A DNA stretch of 64,000 nucleotides from Clavibacter michiganensis (GTDB taxonomy: Bacteria > Actinomycetota > Actinomycetes > Actinomycetales > Microbacteriaceae). The stretch is from positions 1,674,001 to 1,738,000 of the forward strand of contig NZ_CP080437.1 of the NCBI RefSeq assembly GCF_021216655.1. The letters run 5' to 3'. A program made the translations under genes and the position numbers. The notes below the pieces were generated by a model that made no database searches, was not told the origin of the DNA, and saw nothing but the letters and a program-made list of their open reading frames with translations. This document shows positions 49,051-52,961 of the stretch, one piece after another; position 1 is the stretch's first letter, and every line of letters begins with the position of its first letter.

Positions 49051-50046
49051 CTACTTGGCGCCGACGGTGGCCGACGCGTTCGACTCGTACGACGTGTTGG
49101 TCGACTCGAAGAAGTTGACGAGCTGCAGCGTGTCGTTCGCCGTGGCCATCCACTTCGCCGGGTTCGAGACCTTGTACTCGGCCTCGAAGCCGAGCTCCTC
49201 CAGGCGGCGGTCGGCCAGGTACTTCACGTACTGGTTGATGTAGTTCGCGTTGAGCCCGAGGATCCCGTTGGGCAGGAGGTCGCGGTTGTACTGCTCCTCC
49301 ATCTCGACGGCGTCGAGGATCATCTGCTTGATCTCGGCGGCGAACTCCTCCGTCTGCAGGTCGGGGTTCTCCTCGAGCACCGTGAGGATGAGGTTGATCC
49401 CGAACTTCAGGTGCAGCGACTCGTCGCGCACGATCCAGTCCATGAGCGAGCCGAAGTTGCGCAGCAGGTTCCGCTGGCGGAACGACAGCGACACCATGAA
49501 GCCCGAGTAGAACCAGATGCCCTCGAGGATCACGTTGTACGCGACGAGATTCCGGACGAAGTCCTTCTTGCCCTCGGTGGTGGTGATGTCGAGGGTCTGC
49601 TCGGTCATGCGCTTGATGAACTTGACCTCGAACTCCTCCTTGCGCGCCATCGACGGGATGTCGACGTGGGAGTTGTACGCGGCCTCGCGGTCGATCGGGA
49701 ACGTCTCCAGGACGTACTCGAACGACATGCAGTGGTTCGCCTCCTCCCACATCTGCTTCGCCAGGTAGAGGTGGCACTCCGGCGCGTTGATGTAGGGGTA
49801 GACGCCGAACGCGAGCGCCTTGTTCACCAGGAGCTCGTTCGGGTTGAAGTAGCTCATGAGGAACGTGATCGCGTGGCGCTCCTCGTCCGTCATCTTCTTG
49901 AAGTCCGCGATGTCCTCGCCGAGCTGGATCTCGTTGGGGAACCACGTGTTGGCGACGGCCTGGTCGTACAGGTCCATGGCCCACTGGTAGTTGACGGGCT
50001 TGAGGAGGAGGCCCTCCTGGATTCCCGTGCCGAGGATCTTCGACAT
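49051..50046 (-). CDS. nrdB: Ribonucleotide reductase beta subunit, class Ic/Id-like (no radical Tyr)
   Basis: This 331-residue ferritin-like protein holds the dimetal site that starts radical chemistry in ribonucleotide reduction. Ligands are E71, E102 and H105 (EANH), E175 (ILEGIWF), E209 and H212 (RDESLHL), with spacings matching class I R2 proteins (31 residues between ligands 1 and 2; 34 between 4 and 5). The position four after H105, where Ia/Ib proteins have the radical Tyr, is F109, and ligand 1 is Glu, as in Chlamydia R2. So it should use a metal-based oxidant rather than a tyrosyl radical. Start: ATG after AAGGGAAGAAG. Last gene of the operon. Confidence 0.92.
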   Translation of the reverse strand: MSKILGTGIQEGLLLKPVNYQWAMDLYDQAVANTWFPNEIQLGEDIADFKKMTDEERHAITFLMSYFNPNELLVNKALAFGVYPYINAPECHLYLAKQMWEEANHCMSFEYVLETFPIDREAAYNSHVDIPSMARKEEFEVKFIKRMTEQTLDITTTEGKKDFVRNLVAYNVILEGIWFYSGFMVSLSFRQRNLLRNFGSLMDWIVRDESLHLKFGINLILTVLEENPDLQTEEFAAEIKQMILDAVEMEEQYNRDLLPNGILGLNANYINQYVKYLADRRLEELGFEAEYKVSNPAKWMATANDTLQLVNFFESTNTSYESNASATVGAK

Positions 50047-50140: not shown

Positions 50141-50218
50141 CTACTGGCAGGAGTCGCACTGGAGCTCGTCCATGGGGTCCATGGGGACGACGTAGTCGCC
50201 GAACGTGTCGTCGTTCAT
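50141..50218 (-). CDS. 25-residue Cys-x-x-Cys tail peptide of ribonucleotide reductase
   Basis: An ATG at 50218 overlaps the alpha-subunit stop by one base (TGATG) and opens 25 codons ending DELQCDSCQ. GGGAGGT nine bases before the ATG is a good ribosome site inside the end of the alpha gene. The peptide is acidic (MNDDTFGDY...) and ends in CxxC, like the C-terminal redox tail that re-reduces the active site of class I alpha subunits, which the alpha protein here lacks. The alternative is a -1 frameshift joining it to alpha, or a sequencing error. GC-rich third positions support translation. Confidence 0.65.
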   Translation of the reverse strand: MNDDTFGDYVVPMDPMDELQCDSCQ

Positions 50219-52743
50219 CAGCGTGCACCTCCCACTCCGCCGAAGCCGAAGCCCTTGCGGGGCGCGGGAGCGGACTGCGGGGCCGGGGCCTCCGCGGTCG
50301 CCGTGGATGCGGGAGCGGCCGACGCGGGGACGGCCGCGGGTGCGCCGCCGCCGAATCCGCCGAAGCCCTTGCGCTTCGTGCCGTCGGCGTCCTGCGACTT
50401 GTCGACCTTCACGGTCGACTGCTCGGCCGTGTGACGCGGCTTCATGTGCAGGTAGTACGTGGTCTTGACCCCGCGCTCCCAGCCGGCGAAGTAGATGTCC
50501 ATCATGTCGCCGAGGTCGCGCGTCTCGAGGTACATGTTGCGGCTGATGGCCTGGTCGATCCACTTCTGCGCGCGCGCCGCGACCTCGAGGAACGCGTACG
50601 GCGAGAGCTGGAAGCTCGTGCGGTACGTGGCCTTGACGTGATCCGGGATGGCGGCGATGTTCTGGATGTCGCCCTGGCTGCGCAGGATGTTCTCGCGCAC
50701 GGTCTCCCAGATGCCGAGCTCCTGCAGGTCCTTCACGAGGTTCCGGTTGACCTCGAGGAACTTGCCCGAGGAGGTGGAGCGGCTGAAGATCTGCGAGAAC
50801 TGCGGGTCGAGGCCGGGCGTGGTGCCCGCGACGAGGCCGATGGACGCGGTGGGCGCGATCGCCATGAGCGTCGCGTTGCGCATGCCGCCCTTGACCTTGG
50901 CGCGCAGCGCGTCCCAGTCGAGGCGCGTGGTGCGGTTGACCTTGACGGGCACGCCGCGGTCGGCCTCCATGAGCGCGATCGAGTCGAGCGGCACGAGGCC
51001 CTCCGACCAGCGCGAGCCCTCGAAGTTCGGGTACGCGCCGCGCTCCTTCGCGAGATCGGCCGACTCGTCGATGGCCGCGTAGGAGACGTGCTCCATGATC
51101 TCGTCGATCAGGTCGTACGACTCCTCCGACTCGTAGGAGTAGCCGAGCTTCTCGACGATGTCGGTGAAGCCCATGACGCCGAGGCCCACCGCGCGGTTCT
51201 GCTGGTTGGAGAAGTCCGCCTCCTTCACGCTGGAGCGCGTGATGTCGATGAGGTTGTCGAGCTGGCGCACCGCGAGGCGCGCGCTCTGCTCGATCTTCGC
51301 GAAGTCGACCTTGCCGTCGGCGAAGTGCTGCGACAGGTTGATCGACGCCAGGTTGCAGACGGAGACGTTGTCCTCGTCCTGCGGCAGCGTGATCTCGGTG
51401 CAGAGGTTCGAGAGGTGGATCGTGCCCGTGTTGTTGTTCAGGGCGCGGTTGTTGATCGTGTCCTTCCAGGTCAGCCACGGGTGGCTGGTGGTCTGGAGGG
51501 AGATGAGGATCGACTTGAACTGCTCGCGCGCCTTGATGCGCTTGAACATGCGGATGCGACCGGCCTCGGCCTCGGCGACGTAGAACGCGTAGCGCTCCGA
51601 GAATGCCTTGCCGTAGAGCTCGTTGAGGTCGGAGACCTCCAGCGGGTCGAAGAGGAACCAGTCGTCGTCGTTCTGCACGCGCTTCATGAACTCGTCGCTG
51701 ATCCACACGGCCGTGTTGGCGGTGCGGGTGCGGCGGTACGGGTCGCCCGAGTTCTGGCGCAGGTCGAGGAACTCGGGGAAGTCGAGGTGCCAGTTCTCCA
51801 TATAGAAGCACAGGGCGCCGAACTTCTTGCCGCCGCGGCTGACGGCGCGGAGCACCGAGTCGATGGTGTGCATGAACGGGATCGGGCCCGTGGAGGTGGT
51901 GTTGTTCGAGCGGATGGGCGAGCCCTGCGCGCGCAGCTTGGAGACGGAGAGGCCGATGCCGCCCGTGCCCTTGGTGAGCCACATGACGTCGCGCGTGGTC
52001 TTCGCGATGTGCTCGATGTCGTCCTGCATCTCCATGACGAAGCAGTTCGCGAGCTGCGGGTAGATGGTGCCCGCGTTGACGAGGGTGGAGCCGGCCGCGA
52101 GGTACTCGAGCTTCGACATCTTCTCGTAGAAGGCGATGGCGGTCTCGGTCGGGTTCTGCTCGTTGAGCGTGAGGCCCATCGCGATGCGCATCCAGAAGTA
52201 CTGGGGCACCTCGAGGGCGTCGCCGTTGCGGCCCTTGATGCCGTAGCGGTTGTTCAGCGTGACGACGCCGATGTACTTGAGCAGCTCGTCGTGCGCGGGC
52301 TCGAGGGCCTGGGCGAGGCGCTCCAGGTCGAACAGCTGCACGAGGCGGGAGTCGAGGAGCATCTCGTCGACGCCGCGCTGGATGTTGCGGGCGAAGTGCT
52401 CCGCGTGGAGGCGCTTGAGCTCCTCGGGCGACGAGTAGTCGCCGAGGACGCGCTTGTAGATGGTCTTGAGGAGGAGGCGCGCGGCGACGGTGTCGAACGC
52501 CGGGTCGTCCTTCACGTTCTGGAGCGCGACCTGGATGACGGCCTCATCCAGCTGCTGCGTGGTGATCCCGTCGAAGAGGGTGATCTCCAGCTCGGACGCG
52601 ATCTGCGTGACCCAGCCGATGTTCTCGTCGAGGCCCTGCGTCGCGTCCTCGATGGCCAGGTTGATGCGGTTCGCGTCGTACGGCTCCCGCGTGCCGTCGC
52701 GCTTCACTACGGTGATGGACACTCTGCTCCTCGTCGTCTTCAT
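50218..52743 (-). CDS. nrdA: Ribonucleoside-diphosphate reductase alpha subunit
   Basis: This 841-residue catalytic subunit reduces ribonucleotides. An ATP-cone activity domain is at residues about 8-100 (VVKRDGTREPYDANRINLAIEDA by its landmarks). The catalytic barrel has redox cysteines C234 (LANCFVM) and C463 (SVCNLAS), thiyl-radical C448 with N446 and E450 (SNLCTEI). After VKTTYYLHM the tail is a low-complexity linker with two KGFG-Gly-rich blocks and it stops without any cysteine; the expected CxxC tail is supplied by the overlapping 25-codon ORF. The ATP cone and length fit NrdA better than NrdE. First gene of the operon, behind NrdR and DnaA boxes. Confidence 0.93.
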   Translation of the reverse strand: MKTTRSRVSITVVKRDGTREPYDANRINLAIEDATQGLDENIGWVTQIASELEITLFDGITTQQLDEAVIQVALQNVKDDPAFDTVAARLLLKTIYKRVLGDYSSPEELKRLHAEHFARNIQRGVDEMLLDSRLVQLFDLERLAQALEPAHDELLKYIGVVTLNNRYGIKGRNGDALEVPQYFWMRIAMGLTLNEQNPTETAIAFYEKMSKLEYLAAGSTLVNAGTIYPQLANCFVMEMQDDIEHIAKTTRDVMWLTKGTGGIGLSVSKLRAQGSPIRSNNTTSTGPIPFMHTIDSVLRAVSRGGKKFGALCFYMENWHLDFPEFLDLRQNSGDPYRRTRTANTAVWISDEFMKRVQNDDDWFLFDPLEVSDLNELYGKAFSERYAFYVAEAEAGRIRMFKRIKAREQFKSILISLQTTSHPWLTWKDTINNRALNNNTGTIHLSNLCTEITLPQDEDNVSVCNLASINLSQHFADGKVDFAKIEQSARLAVRQLDNLIDITRSSVKEADFSNQQNRAVGLGVMGFTDIVEKLGYSYESEESYDLIDEIMEHVSYAAIDESADLAKERGAYPNFEGSRWSEGLVPLDSIALMEADRGVPVKVNRTTRLDWDALRAKVKGGMRNATLMAIAPTASIGLVAGTTPGLDPQFSQIFSRSTSSGKFLEVNRNLVKDLQELGIWETVRENILRSQGDIQNIAAIPDHVKATYRTSFQLSPYAFLEVAARAQKWIDQAISRNMYLETRDLGDMMDIYFAGWERGVKTTYYLHMKPRHTAEQSTVKVDKSQDADGTKRKGFGGFGGGAPAAVPASAAPASTATAEAPAPQSAPAPRKGFGFGGVGGAR

Positions 52744-52913: not shown

Positions 52914-52961
52914 TCACTATATATGCGGGCACCCGGCCGAGCCCAACCCCATATGTAGTGG
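52914..52961 (-). promoter_or_regulatory. nrdA promoter with two NrdR boxes
   Basis: On the minus strand TTGGGC (52946-52941) and TATATA (52923-52918) are 17 bases apart. Box 1, TCACTATATATGCGGG at 52914-52929, covers the -10; box 2, ACCCCATATGTAGTGG at 52946-52961, covers the -35. Their centres are 32 bases (three turns) apart, the usual NrdR arrangement. Confidence 0.8.

Follow-up and report, generated by a model that had tools for sequence, protein, structure and literature searches.

How does a class I ribonucleotide reductase (RNR) regenerate its active site when its catalytic chain ends without a cysteine pair? We met this question in a 64,000-nucleotide stretch of Clavibacter michiganensis DNA (contig NZ_CP080437.1, positions 1,674,001 to 1,738,000; here called the window), where the gene for an RNR alpha subunit overlaps a 25-codon open reading frame (ORF), TailA, that ends in two cysteines. 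In RNRs of this kind, a C-terminal cysteine pair, itself reduced by thioredoxin or glutaredoxin, passes electrons to the active site, as described in an excerpt of PMC5704485. Our comparisons of genomes, plasmids, and phages make it very probable that the small ORF encodes the missing part and that this class I RNR uses its redox tail in trans, as a separate free peptide.

The alpha gene and its 25-codon neighbor

On the minus strand, the window holds, in order, a double NrdR-like box, the alpha gene, the 25-codon ORF, and the beta gene. The features referred to below are as follows.

50218..52743, minus strand: RNR alpha subunit of the NrdA type, 841 amino acids, ending without a Cys pair
50141..50218, minus strand: TailA, 25-codon ORF MNDDTFGDYVVPMDPMDELQCDSCQ, probable detached redox tail, on the evidence of conservation and purifying selection
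50227..50233, minus strand: GGGAGGT, putative TailA ribosome-binding site within the alpha 3' end, 8 bases 5' of the TailA ATG
50221..50259, minus strand: alpha C terminus RKGFGFGGVGGAR, with a conserved basic [RK][RK]GF motif, possibly a docking place for the peptide
52042..52044, minus strand: codon of C234, active-site Cys, invariant in 13 aligned alphas
51355..51357, minus strand: codon of C463, active-site Cys, invariant in 13 aligned alphas
51400..51402, minus strand: codon of C448, presumed thiyl-radical Cys, invariant in 13 aligned alphas
49051..50046, minus strand: RNR beta subunit, 331 amino acids, Phe at the radical position
52915..52960, minus strand: double NrdR-like box 5' of alpha, CACTACAT...TATATAGTG

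Our reading of the minus strand confirmed what a first-pass annotation of the window had claimed for the alpha chain, namely, that its 841 residues end without cysteines in the tail. The gene (52743..50218) closes with RKGFGFGGVGGAR and a stop, and the only cysteines of the chain are at positions 234, 312, 448, and 463; none was found after C463, and thus the chain has no C-terminal Cys pair of its own. The alpha TGA (50220-50218) shares one base with an ATG (50218-50216), giving TGATG, and this ATG opens an ORF (50218..50141) that reads MNDDTFGDYVVPMDPMDELQCDSCQ up to its stop and ends in CDSCQ, again as annotated. The GGGAGGT ahead of the ATG is also present, at a spacing of 8 bases rather than the nine first given.

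Upstream of its C terminus, the chain has the makeup of a class I NrdA. It contains PF03477, PF00317, and PF02867 (the ATP cone, the all-alpha domain, and the barrel), its best solved structural match is 5im3, and the three active-site cysteines C234, C448, and C463 are in place, which we take to correspond to C225, C439, and C462 of Escherichia coli, respectively. A PF02867 search of the window's own genome, which is rated 100% complete, returned this alpha as its single match. For the beta subunit, the closest solved structure is the chlamydial class Ic beta 1syy, and alignment to 1syy and to the Tyr mutant 2ani places a Phe at the radical position, where a Phe instead of the radical Tyr is presumably the marker of a class Ic beta. 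This likeness says nothing about the tail; a class Ic beta would in addition hold an Mn/Fe cofactor.

Conservation and origin of the split

Seen in one genome, the arrangement could be a sequencing error or a recent pseudogene, and a single frame break would look alike. We place it against the Microbacteriaceae, a family of bacteria of soil, water, and plants, from which we sampled 398 genomes in 85 genera. This alpha is present in 170 of the 398 genomes and in 41 of the 85 genera. The 18 genomes compared from the window's genus, its own included, all have it, and the comparison of nrdA 3' ends that the first-pass annotation had proposed gave a uniform result there, with TGATG and the peptide at all 18 loci. 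Across the family, 158 loci were compared, taken from 150 of the 170 alpha-positive genomes and 8 same-genus genomes (the 3' ends of the remaining 20 are not included). Left out of this count were L026 and L027, which belong to other families and have no anchor, and L028 to L030, which are other RNR types. The split was found at 150 of the 158 loci; four have no adjacent tail (L025, L098, L101, and L116), one is odd (L022), and three break off at contig ends (L148, L150, and L154). Two other-family loci in the same read set are fused.

The peptide itself is conserved along with the break. All 150 adjacent tail ORFs keep P-x-D-P-M and C-x-x-C-Q, where the C-x-x-C at the ORF end was partly used to find them and most other positions were not required. 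Over the last 16 codons of 123 distinct sequences, the ratio of nonsynonymous to synonymous polymorphism (pN/pS) was 0.26 in the tail's own frame versus 2.2 and 3.2 in the shifted frames; by this measure, the tail ORF is under purifying selection. With the split shared family-wide, selection acting in the tail frame, and the window alpha being its genome's only PF02867 match, we reject a sequencing error or pseudogene, which the first-pass annotation had kept as the dull alternative, and give it virtually no chance. At the odd locus (L022, genome G026), the alpha frame continues past the tail into the beta region, and the tail ORF lies there in another frame. That genome has three tail copies, one adjacent and two unlinked, and its alpha run-on is possibly an assembly fault.

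A second explanation is that ribosomes undergo programmed -1 frameshifting, or read through the stop, near the end of the alpha gene, so that part of the alpha chains carry the tail as a fusion. The tail is indeed in frame 2 (-1) relative to alpha at 130 of the 150 loci, but frames 0 and 1 were also found (13 and 7 loci), and the frame is thus not constant. We looked at the start signals in a set of 133 loci, from which 17 same-genus loci with the same peptide had been removed so that the window's genus counted once. Every tail in this set has an ATG or GTG start codon; 91 of the 133 starts lie at -1 or +2 of the alpha stop and overlap it, and the others range from -17 to +61. A Shine-Dalgarno (SD) score of at least 4 of 5 was reached by 106 of the 133 tail starts versus 274 of 2660 control starts, a comparison in which the best-scoring start was chosen and high SD scores are accordingly favored. 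The encoded peptides are about 20 to 57 residues long. By eye, no slippery heptamer was seen at the junctions read, where no formal scan was made. Furthermore, some genomes have their sole tail copy on a different contig or tens of kilobases from alpha, and in one viral record the peptide gene precedes alpha (both described below). Purifying selection on the tail, together with its presence in all three frames, means that the loci do not have -1 frameshifting as their common mechanism; given the three relative frames and the unlinked sole copies, we reject frameshifting or readthrough as the general mechanism and regard it as extremely unlikely. The first-pass annotation had left two routes open: its tail in a separate ORF, most likely supplied in trans by reinitiation, stands, and its fusion by a -1 frameshift does not.

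That annotation had also looked to relatives with one continuous frame ending in CxxC as evidence against a split. We found none within the family. Outside it they do occur, since 29 of 30 loci from other families of the order end in a fused CxxCQ (the other one is truncated), and the fused form there looks ancestral from the sequences compared. In a tree of 71 alphas, built by a quick method, the 51 family sequences formed one clade (Shimodaira-Hasegawa-like approximate likelihood ratio test [SH-aLRT], 100) with the 16 fused sequences outside; L186 was labeled fused before its end had been read, and the later reading agreed. With one family clade and fused relatives outside, one fission fits the tree. 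The fused class I alphas of Demequina, Actinotalea, and Nocardioides are the same alpha at 64 to 73% identity and have the same tail motif, PVDPMERLQCESCQ, but in them a long linker joins the tail to alpha in one continuous chain. The end of the tail ORF matches the tail of these fused relatives. The fused relatives and the one-clade tree together indicate that an ancestral single chain is now two, of which the second carries the redox cysteines. A scan of named genomes, in which 80 rows were classed from at least 120 stretches, gave 9 fused, 28 adjacent, and 41 standalone rows, some of the last being near a stretch edge with the neighbor out of view, and 2 rows cut near the alpha side. The fused rows came from Demequina or Demequinaceae, Actinotalea, Aeromicrobium, and Nocardioides.

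Tail genes away from alpha

We scanned the 398 family genomes for the tail motif, allowing one mismatch, and found it in 178: all 170 alpha-positive genomes and 8 of the 228 alpha-negative ones. The number of copies per alpha-positive genome was one in 18, two in 121, and three or more in 31, so that 152 of 170 genomes have at least two; among the matches listed, the extra copy is not next to alpha. The commonest unlinked form, which we call TailB, reads M...DTVGGYAVPVDPMDLLQCDSCQ, and the TailB of the window's own genome is at G000:C1:2115895-2115929 (L200); the TailB copies of L202 and L422 are nearly identical to it. A third match in that genome (L201, G000:C1:2385209-2385243) is out of frame with any usable start and is probably a decayed tail copy.

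In each of the four genomes that lack a tail next to alpha, a single exact match lies elsewhere, in a free-standing ORF. This sole copy is on another contig in G342 and G345, about 33 kb away in G032, and on the same contig but 1.9 Mb off (0.2 Mb if circular) in G176; G342 has a further tail match with two mismatches (L171). PF02867 alphas number one each in G342 and G032 and two each in G176 and G345. To judge from these loci, the adjacent copy was lost about three times (L025; L098; L101 with L116).

These counts bear on a third explanation, in which thioredoxin or a different small thiol protein reduces alpha with no intermediary, the peptide being an accessory or relic. The alpha has no Cys pair of its own, as direct reduction would have it, and an excerpt of PMC4520616 reports that nonnatural thiols slowly reduce RNR active sites without a tail. 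However, the tail motif co-occurs with alpha in 170 of 170 genomes, an unlinked copy is retained wherever the adjacent one was found missing, and the tail is under purifying selection. We consider direct reduction very unlikely.

Next, we looked into whether alpha and TailB genes share upstream elements. The known NrdR binding site consists of pairs of 16-bp boxes, according to an excerpt of PMC12051234. A double NrdR-like box was found at 38 of 45 alpha loci, 31 of 56 TailB genes, 1 of 21 other standalone copies, and 0 of 1294 control stretches, using a pattern whose spacing was measured at the window site and whose letters are looser, and which is therefore tuned on the window's own site. 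An earlier double-box scan with another, wrong spacing had found 0 of 45 and 0 of 77. The box loci come from two sources that partly overlap, and loci were removed as duplicates only where their upstream DNA was identical; one genus accounts for 18 of the 45 alpha loci, and the box is present at 16 of these 18 and at 22 of the 27 elsewhere. The window alpha and the TailB of its own genome both have the double box, suggesting a putative NrdR regulon, and NrdR was present in five of the five genomes tried. Between the two TailB boxes (e.g., at L200 and L204), many copies share a near-palindrome, GGAATGACA...TGTCATTCC.

The peptide is also carried by mobile elements; the standalone and viral sets were found with a pattern fixing D-P-M, C-x-x-C, and Q. 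Clavibacter phage CMP1 and Pontimonas phage phiPsal1 each have an unannotated copy (ORFs L240:6001-6078 and L241:6001-6057) directly 3' of the holin gene. In both named phages this is a late-gene place, odd for a deoxynucleoside triphosphate (dNTP) gene. In IMG/VR, at least 120 stretches have the tail motif, and an alpha signature in the peptide's frame was seen at 0 of the 80 loci examined, one of which is cut at its 5' end. When 36 of the 80 records were tested for PF02867 along with CMP1 and phiPsal1, 37 of the 38 had no alpha, some of the records possibly being fragments. The exception is a 95-kb viral record (L485:3190-6755) with the peptide gene 5' of its own tail-less alpha, which ends RKGFGFKSAN. 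Plasmid records matching the peptide at E values up to 1 number 19 (Clavibacter 15, Leifsonia 3, and Gryllotalpicola 1). Two plasmid copies (L482:4962-5063, P0001) are named "ribonucleotide-diphosphate reductase subunit beta" in NCBI-derived annotation, which is likely a misnomer. Scans of the peptides against Pfam, NCBIfam, and PHROGs gave nothing above the curated cutoff. ORFs of this kind can escape gene callers or receive a wrong name, as with the unannotated copies of CMP1 and phiPsal1 and the plasmid copies called beta. A weak match resembling the tail also coincides with a hypothetical protein of Pseudanabaena phage Pan2 (ON968453, 21249-21323), whose listed host is cyanobacterial; the match may be chance or wider spread.

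A fourth explanation is that the small ORF is translated without a redox role, as a coupling or leader ORF for beta. In the window, and at most loci with an adjacent tail, it sits between the two subunit genes, which would suit such a role. However, residues of the peptide are conserved and not its position alone, the end of the peptide matches the tail end of the fused relatives, and no beta follows the unlinked, plasmid, or viral copies in the regions looked at. A leader function is thus, in our judgment, highly improbable.

A probable free redox peptide for a class I RNR

The reading that we favor, a redox tail acting in trans as a free peptide, would work as follows. Gene fission in the ancestor of the Microbacteriaceae form would have severed the C-terminal redox tail from alpha. 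The TailA peptide would be started by reinitiation at the alpha end, and in most genomes the peptide would also come from an unlinked TailB gene, often with NrdR-like boxes. The free peptide would bind alpha, possibly at the basic C-terminal RKGFGF motif, its Cys pair would reduce the disulfide formed by C234 and C463 in the active site, and the peptide would itself be re-reduced by thioredoxin or a related protein. We infer its translation, binding, redox chemistry, and docking site from sequence. An alpha chain of yeast RNR is served by the tail of its neighbor, which makes action in trans chemically reasonable. As to docking, the [RK][RK]GF motif lies within the last 26 residues of 156 of 156 family alphas examined, no cysteine was found in the C-terminal extension of these 156, and the last 22 codons of the tail frame encode a net charge of -3 to -7. 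That the peptide docks at this basic motif is a tentative proposal, to which we would give slightly less than an even chance.

Several observations weigh against the scheme. The tail motif occurs in 8 alpha-negative genomes (seven are less than 95% complete; one has it only with a mismatch). The genomes G176 and G345, which have no adjacent tail, have a second alpha. Under the pattern used, 25 of 56 TailB genes are without a double box. One split (adjacent) locus stands under a Cellulomonadaceae name and two standalone loci under an Acidobacteria name (L386, L393, and L416), which may be binning faults, naming faults, or wider spread. The RKGFGF motif is also found in fused relatives, and docking there is thus a guess. 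An AlphaFold model of a natural fused relative (13 sequences) had a mean predicted local distance difference test (pLDDT) score of 55.8, too poor, and was not used. The split, its conservation and distribution, the separate start signals, the unlinked sole copies, the co-occurrence with alpha, and the shared boxes are directly visible in the genomes.

The NrdJa/NrdJb system of Pseudomonas aeruginosa offers a precedent. As described in an excerpt of PMC4520616, it is a split class II RNR using adenosylcobalamin (AdoCbl), in which NrdJb, of 229 residues and in one operon with NrdJa, carries C-terminal cysteines, acts as the second chain in thiol-disulfide exchange, and is required in vivo; in 2015 the same source called it the only split RNR found in a nonviral organism. 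The likeness is that one ancestral RNR chain is cut in two and the second chain has the redox cysteines, and NrdJb, so described, indicates that a second chain can do a tail's job. The Microbacteriaceae system differs in being class I, with a second chain of about 25 residues rather than 229 and with unlinked, plasmid, and viral copies. The glutaredoxin-NrdB fusion of Facklamia ignava, as far as an excerpt of PMC6187632 describes it, likewise has an RNR redox part in an unusual place, but there a reductant was gained by fusion, whereas the Microbacteriaceae enzyme would have lost its own tail by fission. In the titles and abstract openings that we found in the open-licence literature, no detached class I RNR tail is described.

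RNR tail chemistry is hard to study because the tail and the catalytic chain are one molecule. Here the two appear to be naturally separate, in the genome's only PF02867 alpha, so that tail binding, turnover, and exchange could be measured with a synthetic peptide. As far as gene content goes, the family-wide split, the further copies in most genomes, and the carriage of the peptide by phages and plasmids go beyond what the single window could offer. The system would be a split class I RNR, and phages and plasmids would be carriers of a host enzyme's redox tail alone. We lean, by a little, toward a broader view in which an essential class I RNR would have, in the free tail, a redox subunit that diffuses and can be exchanged: cells would adjust dNTP synthesis by dosing this tail from two NrdR-box genes, and phages and plasmids would supply a copy of their own, about 25 codons long, that acts on the enzyme of the host. 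If this is true, the phage and plasmid copies would be among the smallest auxiliary metabolic genes known.
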